DNA of 64,000 nt from Myxococcaceae bacterium. Lineage in GTDB: Bacteria; Myxococcota; Myxococcia; Myxococcales; Myxococcaceae. The notes beneath the pieces are model-generated. The model ran no database searches, was not told the origin of the DNA, and worked only from the letters and a program-made list of their open reading frames with translations. Position numbers and translations under genes: made by a program. Of this stretch, positions 3,602 to 14,344 are shown one piece after another (position 1 is the first letter of the stretch; each line of letters opens with the position of its first letter). Where the stretch lies: NCBI GenBank assembly GCA_016793095.1, contig JAEUJQ010000050.1, forward strand, positions 124,001 to 188,000, in the 5' to 3' direction.

Positions 3602-5113
3602 GTGCGAGCCGTGCGCCCGACCTCCTCGCCCACCGTCATCCTTCGTCACTGCCCCACCTACGACGTGCAGCGCATCCGCGCGATGGTGCGCGAGGCCCTC
3701 GACACGTTCGGCCTCGAGCCCCGCGGCCGCACGCTGGTGAAGCCGAACCTCGTCAGCGCGGGCAACCTCTTCAAGCACGCGCACACGCGGCCCGAGGTGG
3801 TGGAGGGCGTGCTGCTGGCGCTCAAGGACCGCGACAAGGGCATGGTGGACCTCACCGTCGGCGAGCGCTGCGGCATCACCATTCCCACCCGCTACGTCTT
3901 CGCGCACTCGGGCGTGGACGCCGTGGTGGAGCGCACCGGCGTCAAGCGCTCCTTCTTCGAGGAGGAGCTGCAGGTCGAGGTGCCCCTCACCCATGCAGGC
4001 CGGCTGCGCGACTCCCTCTACGTGCCTGAGCCGGTCGCCCGCGCCGACTTCTTCGTCAACCTGCCCAAGTTCAAGTCGCACCCGTGGACGACGGTGACGT
4101 TCTCGATGAAGAACTACATCGGCATTCAGGACGACCGGCACCGGCTCATCGACCACGACCACCGGCTCGACGAGAAGGTCGCCGACCTGCAGTACGTGCT
4201 GCAGCCCCAGCTCGTCGTCATCGACGCCGTCATCGCCGGCGAGGGCCGCATGCTGACGCCCATTCCGCGCGACCTCGGGCTGCTGGTGCTGGGCAACAAC
4301 CAGCCGGCCATCGACGCAGTGTGCTGCGCCGTCATCGGCGTGGACCCGAAGACCGTCCCCCACATCGAGCTGCCGTCACGGCGCGGCTTCGGGCCCATCG
4401 ACCTCTCTGCCATCCGCCTCGAAGGCGACGTGACGCTCGACGAGGCGAAGGCCCGCGCGAAGGGCTTCCAGGTGGGCCTGGTGCGCGTCGAGAAGTACTT
4501 CGAGGGCACGAAGATCACCGCGTACGCCGGCCCGCCGCCGGAGCCCGAGCGCACCGACTACTGCTGGGGCGGGTGCCCGGGCGCCATCGAGGAGGCCGTC
4601 GAGATCCTGCGCCTCTTCGACGAGTCCTTCGACGCGAAGAGCCCCCGCCTGCACGTCGTCTTCGGCAACTACCAGGGCCCCATCGACGCGAAGGAGGGCG
4701 AGAAGGTCGTCTTCATCGGCGACTGTGCCCAGTGGCGGGGCAGGCTGGGCGACGCGCCCGTGGCCATCGAGAGCACCTACCAGCCCCGCGAGACGAAGGA
4801 CCCACGCACCGCGACGGCCGACGACATCTACGCGAAGATGGCGCAGGTGGGCGGCAAGCTGGCCCTGGCGGCGCGGCAGCCCTTCGTGCGGCTCCACGGG
4901 TGTCCGGTGAGCGTCGCCGAGCAGGTGCTGGCGCTCGCCTTCCTCTCGGGCTCGAAGAACCCCTACTTCGAGAAGACCGAGATCGTCGCCTTCAACAAGG
5001 CGTACGTGACGTGGCGCGCGAAGATGGCGGCGAAGCGCCTCACCGGGGCGCCGTACCAGGTCGCAGGCCCGGCGCGGCGAGGCGAGGCGAAGCCGGATCT
5101 GGGACCGGGATGA
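3602..5113 (+). CDS. DUF362 domain protein
   Basis: A cytoplasmic protein of 503 residues whose N-terminal half fits the DUF362 family: VKPNLVSAG near residue 47, FVNLPKFKSHPWTTVTFSMK near 145-165 and LIDHDHRLDEKVADL near 180. DUF362 proteins are often linked to iron-sulfur chemistry but have no settled activity. The C-terminal half carries two small cysteine clusters, CWGGCPG near residue 321 and LHGCPV near 432, but no ferredoxin-type CxxCxxC set. Start is a GTG at 602 bases past 3000; a second GTG nine bases later is possible. It converges on, and overlaps by 74 bases, the lipoprotein gene on the other strand. Confidence 0.82.
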   Translation: MRAVRPTSSPTVILRHCPTYDVQRIRAMVREALDTFGLEPRGRTLVKPNLVSAGNLFKHAHTRPEVVEGVLLALKDRDKGMVDLTVGERCGITIPTRYVFAHSGVDAVVERTGVKRSFFEEELQVEVPLTHAGRLRDSLYVPEPVARADFFVNLPKFKSHPWTTVTFSMKNYIGIQDDRHRLIDHDHRLDEKVADLQYVLQPQLVVIDAVIAGEGRMLTPIPRDLGLLVLGNNQPAIDAVCCAVIGVDPKTVPHIELPSRRGFGPIDLSAIRLEGDVTLDEAKARAKGFQVGLVRVEKYFEGTKITAYAGPPPEPERTDYCWGGCPGAIEEAVEILRLFDESFDAKSPRLHVVFGNYQGPIDAKEGEKVVFIGDCAQWRGRLGDAPVAIESTYQPRETKDPRTATADDIYAKMAQVGGKLALAARQPFVRLHGCPVSVAEQVLALAFLSGSKNPYFEKTEIVAFNKAYVTWRAKMAAKRLTGAPYQVAGPARRGEAKPDLGPG

Positions 5114-5496: not shown

Positions 5497-7032
5497 TCAA
5501 CGGCCGGCGTCGCGGACCTGCCTGGCGTCGATGAAGAGGTGACAGCCGGTGCACCGCTGCGGCGGCGGGGTGTGGTCGGCCTGCGGCAACAGCTTGTGGC
5601 ACGAGCGGCAGTTGGCGGGGCCGAAGCCGGGCTCGGGCACGTGCGGCGCGTGGCACTTCTCGCACTCCTGGTGCTTCTCCTCGGCGTGGAGGCCGAGCAG
5701 CTTCTTCACCGCGTGGCAGTCGGTGCACGCCTTGAAGGCCACGCCCGAGTGGCTCTCGTGGCACTTCTTGCACTCCGTGTGGCCGGCCTGCGGGGGCTTC
5801 GACTTCTCGTGGCACGACAGGCAGGGCTTCTGGCTCGCCAGCCCGTGCGGCAGCTGGTCGTGGCAGCTCTTGCACTCGCGGTGGCCCTTCGGGTCCTTCT
5901 GGGGCTTCAGCCGCGCCACCTCGACGTACCGGGTGTCGTGGCAGCTCTTGCACTCGCGCAACGACGTTGGCTTCGCGTCGTGGGGCTCGTGACAGTCGTC
6001 GCACTGCACGCGCTCGCCGTGCACCACCGCGTTCGTGAAGGGCGCTTCGTCGTGGCACTCGAGGCAGCCGCGGGCCACCTTCCCGGCGGGCTGCTTCTCG
6101 TCGTGCATGTAGTGGCACCCGAGGCACAGCTTGCCGTCCTTCGACTTCGGGTGCTTCACCACCTCGTCCTTGTGGCAGGCCTTGCAGTCCTTCGGGGCGG
6201 CGCGGGCCAGGTGCGGCCGGTGGCACTCGCGGCAGGAGTCGTGCTCGCTCGCGCCCATCACCTTCATGGTGTCGTGGCAGCGCACGCACGGCTTCACCAC
6301 GTCCTTGTCGAAGGTGTGCGCGACGTGGCAGCTGCCGCAGCCGACGTGGCCCTTCTCGAACAGGGCCTTCGGCTCGACGCGCGCCTTCGCGGGCACCTTG
6401 TCGGTGGTGTGGCACGTCACGCACATGCCGCTCGCGGGCGCGGCCGCCGTGTGGTGCTCGTGGCAGTTCATGCACTTGTCGGCGAGCGTGTCGCCCTTCG
6501 CGCCGTGGCTCAGCTTCACCTCGTGGCAGGTGGTGCAGTCGGCGGACTGGGTGAAGGGCGCCTCGTGCGGCCGGTGGCACTGCTGGCACTCGGAGCGGTG
6601 CACGGTGATGGCGGGCACGCCTGCGTCGCCGTCGCCCTGGGGCTTCTGGTGGCAGTCGAAGCACATCCACTTCTCGAAGCGCTGGGGCAGCTGCTTCGCC
6701 ATGAAGGGGTGGCAGGTGAGGCAGGTCAGGTCGATGCCGGCGTCGAGCGGGTGGTGCTGCTTGCCCTGGTCCTTGTGGCACTCGAGGCAGAGGTCGCCGG
6801 GCGGGGCGCGAAAGCCCGCGTCGTCGATGGCGTGACAGTCGCGGCAGAGCACCTGCTTCTCGCCCTTGAGGCTGAGGTGCTGCTGGTGCCCCGGCGCGGC
6901 CTTGGCGCGCGGGTAGTGGTCGCCGACGGTGAAGAGGCCGCCGTCCTGCGGAGGAGGGATGAGCTCCTGCAGCTCACCGCAGCCGGCGGCGAGCGCGACC
7001 ATCACGACGGTGAGGAGGACACGCGGAGTCAC
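5497..7032 (-). CDS. 23-heme c-type cytochrome lipoprotein
   Basis: The 511-residue product has a signal peptide with lipobox LAAGC and then 23 CXXCH motifs, about one every 21 residues, so almost the whole chain is heme-binding. Many repeats have the form CxxCHxxH with extra histidines that could serve as distal ligands. No CXXCK catalytic heme of the NrfA type is present, so it looks like an electron wire and not a reductase. The GTG start overlaps the stop of the small membrane gene by four bases, so it is translationally coupled as the last cytochrome of the leftward operon. It is likely a membrane-anchored periplasmic or outer-membrane carrier linking the quinol dehydrogenase to the surface. 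Confidence 0.93.
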   Translation of the reverse strand: MTPRVLLTVVMVALAAGCGELQELIPPPQDGGLFTVGDHYPRAKAAPGHQQHLSLKGEKQVLCRDCHAIDDAGFRAPPGDLCLECHKDQGKQHHPLDAGIDLTCLTCHPFMAKQLPQRFEKWMCFDCHQKPQGDGDAGVPAITVHRSECQQCHRPHEAPFTQSADCTTCHEVKLSHGAKGDTLADKCMNCHEHHTAAAPASGMCVTCHTTDKVPAKARVEPKALFEKGHVGCGSCHVAHTFDKDVVKPCVRCHDTMKVMGASEHDSCRECHRPHLARAAPKDCKACHKDEVVKHPKSKDGKLCLGCHYMHDEKQPAGKVARGCLECHDEAPFTNAVVHGERVQCDDCHEPHDAKPTSLRECKSCHDTRYVEVARLKPQKDPKGHRECKSCHDQLPHGLASQKPCLSCHEKSKPPQAGHTECKKCHESHSGVAFKACTDCHAVKKLLGLHAEEKHQECEKCHAPHVPEPGFGPANCRSCHKLLPQADHTPPPQRCTGCHLFIDARQVRDAGR

Positions 7033-7256
7033 GGGCGGCGGGAGGCGACGTCGGCGGCGATGGACAACCCGAAGAGCAGACAGGCCAGCACCCCGAAACC
7101 CTGCGCGACCGACATCGCGCCCACCACGGGGAGCGGCGTGCCGAGCAGCACGCCCGTCACCATCAGCGCGAGGGCGAACAGCCCCAGCACGCAGGCGATG
7201 CGCAACATGCGCTCGGTGGGCCAGCGGGCGAGCAGTCGAAGGAGGCGCGTCATCAT
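7029..7256 (-). CDS. Small two-helix inner-membrane protein
   Basis: This 75-residue protein has two hydrophobic helices (about 18-40 and 47-68) and no cysteine cluster or heme motif. It sits between the NapC-like and 23-heme genes and overlaps both neighbours by four bases (ATGA upstream, GTGA downstream), which shows that it belongs to the operon. A role as assembly or anchoring subunit of the quinol dehydrogenase is inference from position only. No known family was recognised. Confidence 0.7.
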   Translation of the reverse strand: MMTRLLRLLARWPTERMLRIACVLGLFALALMVTGVLLGTPLPVVGAMSVAQGFGVLACLLFGLSIAADVASRRP

Positions 7257-7891
7257 CGGCTCAGCTCCTCCTTCGTCTTGCTGAACGGGTGCGCCACGCC
7301 GTGGCAGCCCGCCGAGGCGCACGACACCTTGTTCTGCGCGAGCTCGTCGGCGAGCGAGACGTGCTCCTTCACGTTGAGGAAGGACGCGAGCGTGCCCGAG
7401 TGGCACTGCTGGCAGTTCTGGTTGGGGTAGGGCTTCGCGGTGCGGATCTCCGCGTGGAACTTCTCGAGGGACCAGCTGCGGAAGCCGCCGAGGTAGTAGT
7501 GGTACACGTGCATCATGCCCGTCAGCTTGGTGAGCGGGTACCCGAGCATTCCGTAGTCGGCGTGGCAGGTGTAGCAGGCCGTCGGCCCGATGATGTGGCT
7601 GCGCGAGTGCCGCGAGGCGAGGCTGGTGCTCTTCGGGTCCTGCAGGTCCTGCAGGTGCGTCTCCATGACGTGGCACGAGCCGCAGAACGTCGGCTCCGTC
7701 GTGCGCACCATGCCCGAGCCCGTGCTGGCCACCGCCGCGACGAAGGGGAACACGGCCAGCCCCAGCAGCAGCCGCATGCGCACCCCGGGCGTCAGCTTCG
7801 GCCGGAAGAGCAGGTGGTGCAGCAGGATGGTGGCGGCGATGGCGGCCGTCACCAGCGTCAGGGCTCCGAATGGCGTGAAGGCGCTCCCCAT
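7253..7891 (-). CDS. NapC/NirT-family multiheme quinol dehydrogenase-like cytochrome
   Basis: This 212-residue protein has two N-terminal hydrophobic segments (about 8-30 and 40-60), then CGSCHVM (Met follows the first heme motif, as in NapC/NrfH/CymA), CYTCH, CQQCH and a fourth site of the CX4CH form (CASAGCH). Members of this family take electrons from menaquinol at the inner membrane and hand them to periplasmic cytochromes; CymA does this for Shewanella metal reduction. Two leading hydrophobic stretches in place of one are slightly unusual. It starts five bases after the decaheme stop, with a weak ribosome binding site, so coupling to the gene upstream is likely. It is the best candidate for electron entry into this cluster. 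Confidence 0.83.
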   Translation of the reverse strand: MGSAFTPFGALTLVTAAIAATILLHHLLFRPKLTPGVRMRLLLGLAVFPFVAAVASTGSGMVRTTEPTFCGSCHVMETHLQDLQDPKSTSLASRHSRSHIIGPTACYTCHADYGMLGYPLTKLTGMMHVYHYYLGGFRSWSLEKFHAEIRTAKPYPNQNCQQCHSGTLASFLNVKEHVSLADELAQNKVSCASAGCHGVAHPFSKTKEELSR

Positions 7892-7896
7892 GGCGG

Positions 7897-10098
7897 TCAG
7901 GGCGATACCGCGTGCGCGGTGTCGACTCCAGCACTCCTTCCAGCGGCGTGGCACACGGCGCAGGCCTCGACGCCGGTGGACGTGGTGTTGAGCGACGCGT
8001 GAGCCGAGGCGGCCGCGCTCTGGTGGCAGCCGGTGCAGGCCGCCGAGGTGGGCTGCTCGAAGACCGGCGTGACGGCGGTAGCGCCGGCGAGGCACGACTG
8101 GCCACCGTCGGCCGGGCCGCTCGGGCCGCCATCGGGCAGCGGCGACACGCAGGTGCGCACCTCACTGCGCGACGGCAGCAGGCCCGCCGGCAGCGGCAGC
8201 GAGACGCCGGTCGCCGTGTGGCACTTCCCGCAGGCGTTGAGCGGCGACGGGTAGCGCGCGTTGGCGTGCACCCGGTGCACGAGGTCCTTCAGGTTGGCGG
8301 CCGGGGCGGTGACGGCGCCACCGTCGAGCGGCGTCACGACGTTCTCCACCAGGTTGCCGCCGTGGCACACCACGCAGTGCTCGGTGTTGGTGCGGGTGCC
8401 GCCGTGCTCGGCGAGGCCCTGGTGGCAGGCGTCGCACTGGGCGAGGGTGACGGTCGAGCGGCGCCCCTTCGCGACGGCGTCGGTGACGGCGAAGGGCGCG
8501 ACCGGGTTGACGGCGCACCAGCGCACGCCGGCGTCGGTGGTGGCGCACACCTCCATGCCGACGGTGAAGCTGCCGGTGTCGGTGGGCAGCAGCGCCGTGA
8601 GCGCGCGGTAGCGGAAGACGCCCGCGTCGAGGCGCTCGAGGCACGCGCCGCCGTCGGTGAGGACCGCGCAGTCGGCGGCGGTCTCGGCCGTCTCGGACAC
8701 GTAGCGCGCGATGTCGGTGTTGGGCCCGGCGAAGACGAAGCGCAGGCGGCTCAGGCGCGCCGCCAGCACGTCGCGGGGCTGCCCGTTGACGTTGACGCCG
8801 AAGGTGACGGTGGGCCGCGCGCCGGGCGGCGTCGCGGGCACCGAGATGATGTTCGCCCTCACGTCGATGCGCGACGGGTCCCGGCCGGGGCTCCGGTGCC
8901 GCTCCTCGATGGGGGCGATGCCCATGGTGGCCGGGTGACAGATGCCGCACTGGTTGTCGTTGCGCGGCCCCACGGCGTGCAGCGTCCACCCCGGCGGCGG
9001 CGTGGCGCTGGTGAGCCAGGTGCGGTCGTGGCAGCCGGCGCAGTTGTCGGTGGTGGGGTTCGTCTTCCACCGGTCGTCGGTGGCTGCGTGGCACCCCTCG
9101 CAGGTCGCCAGGTTCCCCGGGTATGCGACGCTCGAGTAGTCGTGCAGCTGGTTGTTGAAGCCGATGAAGCGGTACGGCACCCCCGCGTCCACGCTGGGCA
9201 GCCGGAAGCCCATGTGAATCGAGTGCACCATCTTCTTGAAGTCGTACGAGGTGCCGGTGTCGGGGTCGATGTCAGCCGAGTTCGTGTGGCACAGGATGCA
9301 GAGCGCGACGTCGCGCCGCGCGCCCCCGTGCGCCTCGAGCCGGGTGTGACAGGCGTTGCACTGCTGGTCCGTCACCAGCTCGCGCTTCTTCGTCACCGCC
9401 TGGCCGTCGGGCCGGAAGTGGAACACCGTGTTGTCGACGTGCCGCACGCCCTGCACCGTGCGGGTGGCGTACAGCCCGACGGAGTGCGTCTTCGCCGCGT
9501 TCGCGCCCACCACCACGGGCGTCGCGAAGAGGTAGCGGTAGAGGCCCTGCGCCGCGTCCACCTCGACCCAGGCGCCGTTCTGGTCGCTCGCGTTCTGCAG
9601 AAAGCTGCCGCCGTCGAAGGCGACGGTGCGGCGCGTGTAGCTGACGTACTGCAGCGGCAGCCCGTCGCTGGCGCGCTCCTCGAGGTAGCCCAGGACGAAG
9701 GAGACGCTCACCGCGCCCTCCGTCAGCAGCCCTGCGCGGTCGAGCCGCCGCCCGGCCTCGTCAGCGAGCTGCACGTCCACCGACACGCCGCCGTCGGCGA
9801 TGGCAGCGCCCAGCACCGTCACCACGAGGCCTGGACCGCTGAAGCGCAGGTCGCGGCCGTTCTGGCCCGCGTCGCCGGCTGGCCCCTGCGGCCCCTGCAT
9901 TCCATTCTGACCCGGCTGGCCGTTCTGACCCGCCGGCCCCTGGGCGCCCATCGAACCGGGCTGGCCCTGGGTGCCCATGGAGCCGGACTCACCAGCCGGC
10001 CCCTGAGGACCGGCCGGGCCTGCGGGGCCCTGGCACGCGCTGACGAAGACGACGGCGGCCAGCGCGCACGCCCGCGTCATGAAGGTGAGGTCGTTCAT
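7897..10098 (-). CDS. OmcA/MtrC-family decaheme lipoprotein cytochrome with collagen-like stalk
   Basis: This 733-residue protein has a lipobox (VFVSAC, Cys22), then about 20 Gly-X-Y triplets (residues 23-83), a beta-rich domain and ten CXXCH motifs in two sets of five, separated by a second beta domain. That split pentaheme layout is typical of OmcA/MtrC outer-surface cytochromes, which deliver electrons to minerals or shuttles. The collagen-like stretch would hold the heme body away from the lipid anchor. AGGAG upstream of the ATG fixes the start. It is the first gene of the leftward operon, diverging from the beta-barrel gene. Confidence 0.92.
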   Translation of the reverse strand: MNDLTFMTRACALAAVVFVSACQGPAGPAGPQGPAGESGSMGTQGQPGSMGAQGPAGQNGQPGQNGMQGPQGPAGDAGQNGRDLRFSGPGLVVTVLGAAIADGGVSVDVQLADEAGRRLDRAGLLTEGAVSVSFVLGYLEERASDGLPLQYVSYTRRTVAFDGGSFLQNASDQNGAWVEVDAAQGLYRYLFATPVVVGANAAKTHSVGLYATRTVQGVRHVDNTVFHFRPDGQAVTKKRELVTDQQCNACHTRLEAHGGARRDVALCILCHTNSADIDPDTGTSYDFKKMVHSIHMGFRLPSVDAGVPYRFIGFNNQLHDYSSVAYPGNLATCEGCHAATDDRWKTNPTTDNCAGCHDRTWLTSATPPPGWTLHAVGPRNDNQCGICHPATMGIAPIEERHRSPGRDPSRIDVRANIISVPATPPGARPTVTFGVNVNGQPRDVLAARLSRLRFVFAGPNTDIARYVSETAETAADCAVLTDGGACLERLDAGVFRYRALTALLPTDTGSFTVGMEVCATTDAGVRWCAVNPVAPFAVTDAVAKGRRSTVTLAQCDACHQGLAEHGGTRTNTEHCVVCHGGNLVENVVTPLDGGAVTAPAANLKDLVHRVHANARYPSPLNACGKCHTATGVSLPLPAGLLPSRSEVRTCVSPLPDGGPSGPADGGQSCLAGATAVTPVFEQPTSAACTGCHQSAAASAHASLNTTSTGVEACAVCHAAGRSAGVDTAHAVSP

Positions 10099-10296
10099 CG
10101 AAGGTCTCCTGGGTACACCGACGCCCGCTACCTGTACCATCGGATCCACCGGCCTGACAGGACACTGACGGATTGATCACGGGGCGCCGACACACTGGCC
10201 TCACCCACTTTTCTCGAAGCCGCAAGCAAACTTCATGTCGATTCACTGCGAACCTTTCTTGTGTGCGGGGCAAAGTCGGGCTTGAGGGCCATTGTG
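10099..10296. promoter_or_regulatory. Divergent intergenic region between the two cytochrome operons
   Basis: These 198 bases separate the starts of the leftward decaheme operon and the rightward beta-barrel operon, so both promoters must lie here unless they are further inside genes. I found no convincing -35/-10 pair, -24/-12 element or paired FNR box by eye. A lone TTGAT half-site occurs at 10173. Calling it regulatory rests on gene orientation alone. Confidence 0.45.
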
Positions 10297-11718
10297 ATGC
10301 GTCGGCAGCGCAGGGAGCAGCGAGGGTGGTGGAGCACGGCGTCCGTCGGCGCGGCGGCAGCCTTTCTGATGGCCTCGCAGGCTCTCGCTGATGCGCCCGA
10401 GGCCCGCGCGCCCGCGGCGAAGGCATGGAAGGCGCCCAACCAGCCGACCTGGTTCGACGCACGCGCCACGCTGCAGGTGCAGGCCTTTCAGCAGGCGATG
10501 TTGCCCGGCGTTCCCGGCATGGTGGCGCCCATCGACCTGGCGCTGCCCATCACCGCGACGGGCTTCCTGCGCTTCGGTGGAATCGACTTCCTGGGCAACG
10601 ACGACTCGGTGAGCGGCGAGGTGGCCCTCTGGGGACGTCTGGGCCCGCGCGACGGGCTGGTGGGCGACGGCGACCTCACCACCGCCTGGGCCCAGTACCG
10701 CAGCGGGCCCTGGCGCGTGAAGCTGGGCCGGCAGGTGACGTGGCCCGGCTCGGCGCGCTACGTGCGCTTCGACGGCGTCTCGGGCGGCGCGACGTTCGGC
10801 TTCCTCGACGTCGATGCCTACGGGGGCTTCGTCGCCCTGCCGCGCTGGAGCCTGCCGCGCGGCGCCTGGGTGCTCGGCTCCATCGGCGACGCCCTCGAAG
10901 ACCCGCGGCTGCGCGAGGCGCAGAACCGGCTCGGCCAGTTCCTCCTCGGGGTGCGGGTCGGCGCGCGAGCGGGCTCGGTGGTGCGTGGCTCCCTCGCCTT
11001 CCACGAGCAGCACGACGCGGTGGGCGTCGCGTTCCGCGTCCTGTCCGCCGACGTCACCTCCCAGCCCGTCGACTGGCTGGGCCTCGGCGCGCGGGCGTCG
11101 TTCGACGTGAAGTCGCTCGGCTTCTCGGAGGCACGGCTGTGGGCCGACCTGACGGGCTGGCGCGTCGCCACCGCCTCCGTCGACTACCTCTACCAGAGCC
11201 CTTCGCTCCTGCTCCCGCAGACGTCCGTCCTCGCGGCCTTCGGAGGCGCGTCGTGGCACGAGCTCGGCACCGAGCTCAGCGTGCAGCTCCCCTGGCGCCT
11301 GTCCGTCACCGGGCGCGCCGCTGGCCAGCTCTACGACGGCGACCGCCCTGGTGGCCGCGGGCTCGCGCGGGTGAAGTGGGTCCCCGACCTCGACAGCCGG
11401 TGGCTGGTTCAAGCAGAGGTGGCGCGCGTGCTGATGGGCACGCAGGGCTACACCCAGGTGCGCACGAGCGGCCGCTGGCGCGCGACCCCGACCGTCGCCG
11501 CGACCGTCGACGGCGCGCTCTACCTGTATGACATCCCCATCGTCGGCACCCGCCACTCCCTCACCGGCATCGTGAGCGCCGAGTGGGCCGTGCGCCCGTG
11601 GCTTCGAACGCTGCTCTCCACCACCGTGATGCAGACGCCCTTCGCGGCGTTCGAGCTGCAGGGGCTCGCGCGTGTCGTCGTCGAGCTCGAGCCCAGCACC
11701 ACCGGAGGCCGCCCGTGA
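10297..11718 (+). CDS. Outer-membrane beta-barrel, candidate porin of a cytochrome conduit
   Basis: The 473-residue protein has a classic signal peptide (basic start, hydrophobic core, cleavage after SQALA). The mature part alternates polar and hydrophobic residues with aromatic ends and short turns throughout, as in a barrel of many strands. It has no heme motif. It is the first gene of an operon in which the next two genes, each overlapping by four bases, encode multiheme lipoproteins. This arrangement recalls the porin of Geobacter porin-cytochrome complexes and MtrB of Shewanella, although it is shorter than MtrB and I see no direct sequence match. The ATG at 10297 gives a normal leader; an upstream GTG at 10261 does not. 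Confidence 0.75.
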   Translation: MRRQRREQRGWWSTASVGAAAAFLMASQALADAPEARAPAAKAWKAPNQPTWFDARATLQVQAFQQAMLPGVPGMVAPIDLALPITATGFLRFGGIDFLGNDDSVSGEVALWGRLGPRDGLVGDGDLTTAWAQYRSGPWRVKLGRQVTWPGSARYVRFDGVSGGATFGFLDVDAYGGFVALPRWSLPRGAWVLGSIGDALEDPRLREAQNRLGQFLLGVRVGARAGSVVRGSLAFHEQHDAVGVAFRVLSADVTSQPVDWLGLGARASFDVKSLGFSEARLWADLTGWRVATASVDYLYQSPSLLLPQTSVLAAFGGASWHELGTELSVQLPWRLSVTGRAAGQLYDGDRPGGRGLARVKWVPDLDSRWLVQAEVARVLMGTQGYTQVRTSGRWRATPTVAATVDGALYLYDIPIVGTRHSLTGIVSAEWAVRPWLRTLLSTTVMQTPFAAFELQGLARVVVELEPSTTGGRP

Positions 11719-12788
11719 CGCGTCGCCTCTCGTTGCTGGGCCTCGTCGTCGCCCTGACGCTGCTCGCGGCAGCCTGTCCCCGTGGGCTCCTGACGCGCTT
11801 CCCACACCGGCAGCACCTCGCCGAGCTCGAGTGCGGAGGGCCCGGCCAGGCCGAGTGCCTCTCGTGCGCCAGCTGCCACCTCGGCGACGGCACCAGGGCC
11901 GGGGCCTGGCACCGGCCGCGGAAGGACAACTGCGGCGGCTCGACGTGCCACCAGAGCGCCGAGCTCGACGACGTGTACGCCCGCTCGCTGCGCCCCTCCA
12001 TCGCGCCGCAGCCTGCCGGCAAGGCCATCGTCTTCGAGCACGACCCGCACCTCGACAAGCCCACCATCAAGGGCCAGTGCGTCGGGTGCCACTCGGGCGC
12101 CGTCGGCACCGAGGGCGGCGACCCGCTCTTCCCGCCGATGGACACCTGCCTCACGTGCCACGAGCACCGCACGCAGTTCGACAACGGCATCTGCACCAAC
12201 TGCCACAAGGACGCCGACCTGCGGCAGCTCGTGCCAGCCTCGGTCTTCCGCCACGACGGCGCCTGGGTGAAGCGCCACGGCCTCGAGGCGCGCCAGCGAC
12301 CGGCGGCGTGCGAGACGTGCCACGCGCAGACGAGCTGCGACAGCTGTCACGACACCACGCGCCCCTCGTCGCCGGCCATGCGCAACCCCGAGGCCATCGA
12401 GCGCGAGCTGGTGCACCGCTTCGACTTCCTCACCCGCCATGCGCTCGAGGCGGAGTCGCAGCCGGGCACCTGCGTCACCTGCCACGTGAAGACCGAGTGT
12501 GACGCCTGCCACGTGGCCCGCGGCGTCTCGGCCTCGCGCGCTGGCGCAGAGGGGCCCCACCCGGCGCTCTGGTCCAGCGGCCTCGGGGCCGCGCGCAACA
12601 CCCACGGCAAGGCGGCTCGCCGTGACATCGCCTCGTGCGCGGCCTGTCACGACCAGGGCCCGGCCAGCAACTGCGTGCGCTGCCACCGCGTGGGCGGCAC
12701 GGGAGGGACTCCGCACCCGGCGGGCTGGCGCAGCACCGCGCCCCGCTCCAACGCCGAGTGCTCGGCCTGTCACGGAGGCTCGCTGTGA
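11715..12788 (+). CDS. 12-heme c-type cytochrome lipoprotein
   Basis: This 357-residue protein has a lipobox LAAAC and eleven CXXCH motifs plus one CX4CH site (CGGSTCH). The GTG start overlaps the stop of the beta-barrel gene by four bases, and its own stop overlaps the next gene the same way. By analogy with porin-cytochrome conduits, it could fill the periplasmic side of the barrel. Histidine-rich stretches such as FEHDPHLDKP could give distal ligands. No catalytic domain is recognisable. Confidence 0.92.
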   Translation: MTRRLSLLGLVVALTLLAAACPRGLLTRFPHRQHLAELECGGPGQAECLSCASCHLGDGTRAGAWHRPRKDNCGGSTCHQSAELDDVYARSLRPSIAPQPAGKAIVFEHDPHLDKPTIKGQCVGCHSGAVGTEGGDPLFPPMDTCLTCHEHRTQFDNGICTNCHKDADLRQLVPASVFRHDGAWVKRHGLEARQRPAACETCHAQTSCDSCHDTTRPSSPAMRNPEAIERELVHRFDFLTRHALEAESQPGTCVTCHVKTECDACHVARGVSASRAGAEGPHPALWSSGLGAARNTHGKAARRDIASCAACHDQGPASNCVRCHRVGGTGGTPHPAGWRSTAPRSNAECSACHGGSL

Positions 12789-14344
12789 GTCGGCGCCTGT
12801 GGACCCTGAGCTTCCTCGTCGCCTCGGCCTGCTTCGTGCCGAGGGACAACACCGCGCGCCCCGACAACCAGTGCACGCGCTGCCATGGGGACTCCACCCG
12901 CGAGGCGGACGCGGTGACGAGGGCCGCGCCCCCCACCGACACCTTCGGGAACACCGCCGCATCGTTCCCCGGCGTCGGGGCGCACGCCCAGCACCTCGTC
13001 GCCTCGAAGACGCACGCGGCCGTCTCCTGCCGCGAGTGCCACGTGGTGCCCGAGGACACCGAGGCGCGCGGCCACAACGACGGCACCACGCAGCTCGTCT
13101 TCGGCCCCCTCGCCACGAAGGACGGCGGCGTTTCTCCGGCGTACGACCCGGCTACGCGGCAGTGCAGCAACTCCGGCTGCCACGGCGCGGTGTCGAACCG
13201 GTGGACGCGACCGCGCACGTCGGACGAGGCGTGCGGCTCGTGTCATGGCCTGCCGCCGCCGCGCCCGCACCCGCAGTACACGGCGTGCCACGCCTGCCAC
13301 GAAGAGGTGGTGGGCCCGCAGGGCTTCCTCGCGCCCGCGAAGCACGTCGACGGCGTGGTGCAGAAGAACGAGGCCTCGTGCGTCGCCTGCCACGGCGCCA
13401 CCGACGGCGGCGCTCCGCCCCGCTCCCTCGACGGCGGCACCGACGTCACCAACGTGGGCGTCGGCGCGCACCAGGCCCACCTCTCGGGCGGCAGCTGGAG
13501 CCGGCCGGTGGCCTGCGAGGCGTGCCACGTGGTGCCGGCGACGAGCGTCACCCCGTCTCACCCGAACGGAGGCCCCGCCGAGGTGGTGGCCGACGCGGGC
13601 TACGACACCGTGACGCGCACCTGCGCGGTGGCCTGCCACGGCGTGCGCTCGCCAGTGTGGAACACGGCCGACGCGGGGCTCACCTGCTCGTCGTGTCACG
13701 CCGCGCCGCCTCCCACCCCGCACCCGCAGTCGCCCAGCTGCGGCCTCTGCCACCCGTACGAGAACAACCAGGTGGCGCGGGCCACGCACGGCAACGGCAC
13801 GAAGGACGCGGTGCTGCCGGCGGCCTGCAACGCCTGTCATGGCAGCGCCGCCAACGCGGCCCCGCCCCAGGACCTCTCAGGCTCGATGGACACCACGCGC
13901 CAGGGTGTGGGCGCCCACCAGGCGCACCTGCGCGACGGCGGCACGGCGCGGCCGGTGGCCTGTGACGAGTGCCACGTGGTGCCGGCGATGACGGTCGCGC
14001 CGGGGCACCTCAACGGCGCCACCGAGGTGCGCTTCCAGGGCGTGGCGCGGAGCAACCAGGCCAACCCGACGTACTCGGCGGCGAACGCGACGTGCAGCGG
14101 CGCCGCGTGCCACGACGTCTCGAACCTGCTCGGCGCGCCGGGCGGCGGGCAGCACACGGCGCCCCGGTGGACGCTGGTGGACGGCTCCCAGCGCCAGTGC
14201 ACGTCCTGCCACGGCATGCCTCCTCCGGCGCCGCACCCGCAGCAGACCGACTGTGCCACCTGTCACCGCAACGCGGCGCCCGACGGCGGCTTCGTGCGGC
14301 CAGACCTGCACATCGACGGGCGCGTCACCTTCGCGGTGCCCTGA
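12785..14344 (+). CDS. 15-heme cytochrome of the CxxxxCH/CXXCH repeat type
   Basis: The 519-residue lipoprotein (LVASAC) has twelve CXXCH motifs, two CX4CH (CSNSGCH, CSGAACH) and one CX3CH (CAVACH). Repeats of GVGAHQAHL followed by a CxxCHVVPA segment recur about every 130 residues. This is the layout of the Geobacter CxxxxCH...CXXCH domain family, secreted multiheme proteins of unclear function. It ends the rightward operon. The related 17-heme gene at 51-53 kb shares the GAHxxHL and CHxVPA pattern, so the two probably arose from a common ancestor. Confidence 0.92.
   Translation: MSRRLWTLSFLVASACFVPRDNTARPDNQCTRCHGDSTREADAVTRAAPPTDTFGNTAASFPGVGAHAQHLVASKTHAAVSCRECHVVPEDTEARGHNDGTTQLVFGPLATKDGGVSPAYDPATRQCSNSGCHGAVSNRWTRPRTSDEACGSCHGLPPPRPHPQYTACHACHEEVVGPQGFLAPAKHVDGVVQKNEASCVACHGATDGGAPPRSLDGGTDVTNVGVGAHQAHLSGGSWSRPVACEACHVVPATSVTPSHPNGGPAEVVADAGYDTVTRTCAVACHGVRSPVWNTADAGLTCSSCHAAPPPTPHPQSPSCGLCHPYENNQVARATHGNGTKDAVLPAACNACHGSAANAAPPQDLSGSMDTTRQGVGAHQAHLRDGGTARPVACDECHVVPAMTVAPGHLNGATEVRFQGVARSNQANPTYSAANATCSGAACHDVSNLLGAPGGGQHTAPRWTLVDGSQRQCTSCHGMPPPAPHPQQTDCATCHRNAAPDGGFVRPDLHIDGRVTFAVP

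Follow-up and report, generated by a model that had tools for sequence, protein, structure and literature searches.

The outer-membrane part of the locus described here has its nearest characterised relative in the metal reducer Anaeromyxobacter dehalogenans, whose porin-cytochrome (Pcc) cluster consists of two genes, with a cytochrome of 12 hemes and 338-344 residues that is more abundant on Mn(IV) (PMC4245776). In Shewanella, the CymA-MtrCAB system combines a NapC-type quinol dehydrogenase, a barrel with an internal cytochrome and a surface decaheme of the OmcA/MtrC family, whereas the OmbB-OmaB-OmcB system of Geobacter has a porin, a periplasmic and an outer cytochrome in one cluster. The Myxococcaceae, a family of soil predators, are mostly known for an aerobic life. 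In the genome of a member of this family, a stretch of 64,000 nucleotides (the window) was found to hold seven genes that we read, with a probability of roughly 0.7, as a complete quinol-driven chain for outward electron transfer.

Layout and conservation of the cluster

The seven genes, A to G, form two divergent operons that span positions 5497-14344 of the window, and all of them were located at the coordinates given below. Within each operon, the genes overlap by GTGA or ATGA or sit 5 bases apart, as in translational coupling. When counted with the pattern CX2-4CH, the heme-binding motifs total 64 (23 in A, 4 in C, 10 in D, 12 in F and 15 in G); C has three CXXCH and one CX4CH, F has 11 and one CX4CH, and G has 12 CXXCH, one CX3CH and two CX4CH. 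Lipobox cysteines are present in A, D, F and G. An earlier note on this DNA had described two coupled operons of seven genes with lipoproteins of 10, 12, 15 and 23 hemes and 64 hemes in all, and the motif counts, lipoboxes and overlaps confirm that description. A DUF362 protein (145 bits) is encoded beside the cluster (3602-5113 of the window), and was not found adjoining the cluster in related loci.

A search of the order with E revealed close copies in 12 other genomes. In the regions fetched from them, A, B, C, E, F and G were together in 10 genomes of the family, the contigs of the other two (L043 and L045) stopping inside the cluster, so the synteny that had been proposed as a check is conserved. 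D was at the same place in seven of these 10 clusters, was missing in two (L040 and L047), and in another (L046) a weaker D-like gene lay beyond the far side of A. The flanking genes vary among the loci, and in alignments of 8-15 orthologues the cysteines and histidines of the motifs are invariant columns. Therefore, with these residues invariant and the gene order kept while the flanks vary, the cluster is far from chance. From genome to genome, the divergences of A, C, D, E and G are also correlated with one another (r 0.86-0.96).

A scan of named genomes gave 14 loci, assigned to Myxococcaceae, Archangiaceae/Archangium, Myxococcales and Polyangia. All of them are metagenome-assembled and, therefore, no culture among these 14 named relatives shows the trait. 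In the Polyangia locus (L069), C, A (with 27 motifs), E, F and G are arranged differently. Distant barrels were detected in 55 of 195 genomes of the phylum, the own genome counted, and a 12- or 13-heme F-type gene lay directly behind the barrel in 17 of 18 distant-barrel loci, the contig ending in the remaining one (L182). F directly follows E in the loci inspected, an adjacency that extends beyond the Myxococcaceae to further classes of the phylum. In other families, too, E-F has G- and D-type genes beside it, with the gene order changed, and C- and A-type genes accompany the pair in only part of the distant-barrel and decaheme loci.

The outer-membrane pair and the predicted surface cytochromes

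Gene E (10294-11718, forward strand; start at GTG 10294 or ATG 10297) encodes an outer-membrane beta-barrel that models with about 22 strands and no plug domain (AlphaFold2; pLDDT 74.7 on average and over 85 for most strands). Neither Pfam nor NCBIfam gave a match at an E-value of 0.1, the MtrB/PioB barrel family included, and no PDB sequence match was found. In fold searches with Foldseek and VIA-align, ushers, OprD porins and TonB receptors came ahead of or level with MtrB, the structure of which (6r2q_B) aligned to the model with Z 15.4 amid many unrelated barrels. Since ordinary barrels score like or above MtrB, the fold alone is not diagnostic of a conduit.

Gene F (11715-12788, forward strand) encodes a 12-heme lipoprotein that matches, by profile, the Anaeromyxobacter type of 12/13-heme partner. 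When the close and distant sets were compared as profiles, the barrels aligned at an E-value of 2e-42 with 23% profile identity, and the F-type cytochromes at 5e-84 over 331 columns with 37% profile identity. Both proteins are near-full-length homologues of an adjacent barrel and 12-heme pair in Anaeromyxobacter-like genomes. One genome, G013, is presumably that of A. dehalogenans 2CP-1, and we take the pair to be of Anaeromyxobacter on that assumption. Its two-gene pair, with a 12-heme protein of 344-345 residues, fits the published description for A. dehalogenans (PMC4245776). A barrel and a multiheme cytochrome are thus encoded side by side in the window, and because both are homologous to the two-gene pair described as Pcc, E-F is, as judged from sequence, an outer-membrane core of this known kind. 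F is predicted to sit inside the barrel in an MtrA-like position, although its AlphaFold2 model is of low confidence (pLDDT 47, pTM 0.21).

The absence of any family or PDB sequence match for E, together with the unspecific fold search, would suit an unrelated porin, with the cytochromes serving a periplasmic reductase encoded elsewhere in the genome. As E-F adjacency is kept across classes of the phylum at the profile identities given above, and the cluster has no reductase gene, this explanation is highly improbable. The homology of E to Pcc porins upholds the outer-membrane barrel of the earlier note, whereas a barrel of fewer than 500 residues, which had been taken to set the cluster apart, proved normal for a group whose homologues have about 425-470 residues.

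Two side observations concern these genes. The second heme motif of F (11931-11951) reads CGGSTCH (CX4CH), with a two-residue insertion, where 14 of 14 aligned relatives have CXXCH; one of the 64 motifs may therefore be degenerate in this genome. A 29-residue fragment elsewhere in the own genome (G000:C18:77239-77337, L032) is 76% identical to part of E, and is maybe a remnant or a chance match.

Gene D (7897-10098, reverse strand) encodes a lipoprotein with ten CXXCH motifs and a VSAC lipobox, which scores 317 bits against the OmcA/MtrC model TIGR03507 (cut-off 209) and matches, by profile, solved OmcA (PDB 4lmh, E-value 6e-30), MtrF and UndA. Its product is a decaheme of the OmcA/MtrC family and a predicted cell-surface terminal cytochrome. 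The earlier note had spoken of three large lipoprotein wires; D, however, is a surface cytochrome of the terminal-reductase type. Gene G (12785-14344, forward strand) encodes a 15-motif lipoprotein of the CxxxxCH/CxxCH domain type typical of Geobacter cytochromes (TIGR01904, 108.6 bits, cut-off 27); no match was found in the PDB, and the protein is a candidate second surface cytochrome.

Among 145 genomes of the order, 45 had both barrel and OmcA/MtrC genes, five had only one and five only the other, and 90 had neither, counts that ignore phylogeny, so that shared ancestry inflates their significance. In 20 of the 50 genomes with a barrel, an OmcA/MtrC gene lay within about 4 kb of it. From this co-occurrence, and from an adjacency that recurs in several families with altered gene order and often with a G-type gene, we consider a joint action of D, and likely of G, with E-F to be well supported.

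Further multiheme genes were seen in the own genome. Two are OmcA/MtrC-like (L077, G000:C34:5608-8469, and L078, G000:C51), the former with asparagine-rich GTN repeats in place of GPA. Two large multiheme clusters encode, respectively, proteins with 20, 10 and 29 motifs (L079, G000:C82) and several proteins of 4-12 motifs (L081, G000:C63).

The N-terminal part of D is collagen-like, a feature that had escaped the earlier note. Residues 24-83 (9850-10029, reverse strand; Pfam Collagen, 37.6 bits) are 20 uninterrupted Gly-X-Y triplets that start two residues past the lipobox cysteine (residue 22), and the stretch is retained in D orthologues with a complete N terminus. At least seven such triplets were present in about 19 of 30 decaheme loci sampled from the order (L119-L148), several others of the sample having poly-glycine at the same place, and the profile alignment revealed a short run of about four triplets in Shewanella OmcA. 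The stretch may serve as a flexible spacer or form a trimeric post, and its presence in surface decahemes offers a simple structural test. No description of a collagen-like stretch in decaheme or multiheme cytochromes was found in the open-access literature searched.

Upstream of D (10131-10171, reverse strand), a putative control-region footprint was detected by alignment with loci of the same genus, in which TGGTACAGG and a pair of TGTCA repeats, separated by 11 bases, are common to loci with diverged surroundings. The same-genus loci also have a TGGTAC...ACGC-like spacing upstream of D, from which the copy in the window deviates through a degenerate -12 part. The region may hold a regulator site and a sigma-54-like site.

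Predicted quinol-side and periplasmic components

Gene C (7253-7891, reverse strand), the start ATG of which is 5 bases past the stop of D, encodes a four-heme membrane cytochrome of the NapC/NirT/NrfH type. It scores 45 bits against the NapC/NirT family (Pfam PF03264, cut-off 24) and aligns by profile with NrfH of solved structure (PDB 2j7a, E-value 1.8e-10), including the CXXCHxM first heme site; two N-terminal hydrophobic helices precede the first heme motif, CGSCHVM. Among NCBIfam models, it remained below the cut-offs of NrfH, TorC and NapC/NirT. The protein thus unites the family domain, four hemes and an N-terminal membrane anchor; it is a predicted quinol dehydrogenase that would oxidise menaquinol, and the match to the family bears out the NapC-type electron entry proposed earlier. 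The possibility that the cluster serves a nitrite or sulfoxide reductase was rejected, as the NrfH, TorC and DmsE models scored well below their cut-offs and a catalytic subunit is absent from the cluster.

Gene B (7029-7256, reverse strand) encodes a protein of 75 residues with two predicted transmembrane helices. It is 58-84% identical among orthologous loci, invariably between A and C, and is a candidate small membrane partner of C.

Gene A (5497-7032, reverse strand) encodes a lipoprotein of 511 residues in which 23 CXXCH motifs follow one another at distances of 15-28 residues, and is kept as a 23-heme protein in 10 genomes of the family. By profile it matches HmcA (E-value 3e-13), 3ov0 (E-value 5e-10) and MtrA chains; 3ov0, listed in the structure table only as 'Cytochrome c family protein', we take to be the Geobacter 12-heme protein. 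From its length, its lipobox and these linear multiheme relatives, we infer that A is a wire that crosses the periplasm. A bolder combined proposal is that the 23 hemes of A form a rigid, tethered wire over the full width of the periplasm and that D trimerises through its collagen-like stretches into lipid-anchored 30-heme surface posts, which we regard as doubtful. If true, the wire itself would link quinol oxidation to the cell surface, with no need of diffusing shuttles. The route of electrons across the periplasm, which measures about 200 angstrom (PMC7096707), is a matter of debate for systems of this sort, and a 23-heme protein encoded in the cluster makes a fixed-wire answer testable.

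Proposed electron path and comparison with known systems

In the proposed path, C, with B as its membrane partner, would oxidise menaquinol at the inner membrane, and A would carry the electrons from C/B across the periplasm. F within the 22-strand barrel E would pass them through the outer membrane to D, on its collagen-like stalk, and G, both of which would face outside and donate to an extracellular acceptor, with Fe(III) or Mn(IV) minerals, humics or another cell as candidates. The localisation of each protein, the order and direction of transfer and the acceptor are, like the span of A, inferred. The outward direction is proposed because a NapC-type entry is combined with an OmcA/MtrC exit, and the steps through E-F because the pair is homologous to Pcc. 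The idea of a candidate extracellular electron transfer system is supported by the NapC-type C, the conserved synteny and the Pcc-type barrel. Against export count the D-less clusters L040 and L047, the unspecific fold search of E and the oxidases of the host: its genome has three heme-copper oxidase genes, so that the host probably lives aerobically for at least some of the time and is unlikely to be strictly anaerobic. The chain may be of use when oxygen runs low.

The same conduit could instead run inward, with Fe(II), a cathode or a partner cell as electron source and D/G, F/E, A and C as the route to the quinone pool. Such conduits can in principle work in both directions, the oxidases of the host could act as sink, and iron-oxidising bacteria have porin-cytochrome pairs without an MtrC homologue (PMC7096707). 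However, whereas these iron-oxidiser conduits have no MtrC-type protein, D is present in most of the clusters, and metal reduction is what the nearest characterised relative performs, which makes inward transfer quite unlikely.

Only a slim chance is given to a non-respiratory role, in which the cluster would store electrons or discharge their excess for redox balance or for biofilm or predation contact, with little contribution to growth. The 64 hemes have a large capacity, and the family of the carriers is generally known for aerobic predators. A capacitor role has been proposed for high-heme proteins (PMC11495043). In contrast, dedicated NapC-type and OmcA/MtrC proteins are the usual parts of anaerobic respiration, and the operon coupling is tight.

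If outward transfer is correct, a single locus holds a full dedicated path from quinol to the surface, and extracellular respiration extends to the Myxococcaceae; the recurrence of the cluster in uncultured relatives suggests that soil predators supposed to breathe oxygen may also use minerals or other substances outside the cell for respiration. The unusual additions are the co-encoded four-heme NapC/NrfH-type C, the 23-heme A, the second surface-type G and the collagen-like stretch of D. The complete linked set with a 23-heme lipoprotein, spread in uncultured Myxococcaceae, looks new; no description of it was found in the open-access literature searched, although its absence is not thereby proven.

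The order and sizes of the genes had been held to differ from known systems, but the cluster is less divergent than claimed, as E and F are homologous to the Anaeromyxobacter Pcc and D is of the OmcA/MtrC family. Like E-F, the Anaeromyxobacter cluster (Adeh_3392 type, group IV of Shi et al. 2014, PMC4245776) has a barrel gene followed by a 12-heme gene, but it ends there, whereas in the window G follows the pair, and the opposite operon contributes the OmcA/MtrC, NapC-type, small membrane protein and 23-heme genes. The logic of CymA-MtrCAB is the same, but E has no match to the MtrB/PioB family and 22 modelled strands, F is a lipid-anchored 12-heme protein, the 23-heme A replaces soluble shuttles, and G is an extra surface-type cytochrome. 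The Geobacter OmbB-OmaB-OmcB cluster, likened here by description, and the CxxxxCH/CxxCH domain type that G has in common with Geobacter cytochromes provide a further parallel, but its cytochromes have 8 and 12 hemes, and the present cluster adds an OmcA/MtrC protein and a NapC-type gene. Finally, A resembles by profile the linear periplasmic multiheme cytochromes, HmcA and the presumed Geobacter protein 3ov0, from which it differs in its 23 hemes, its lipobox and its fixed position in the cluster.
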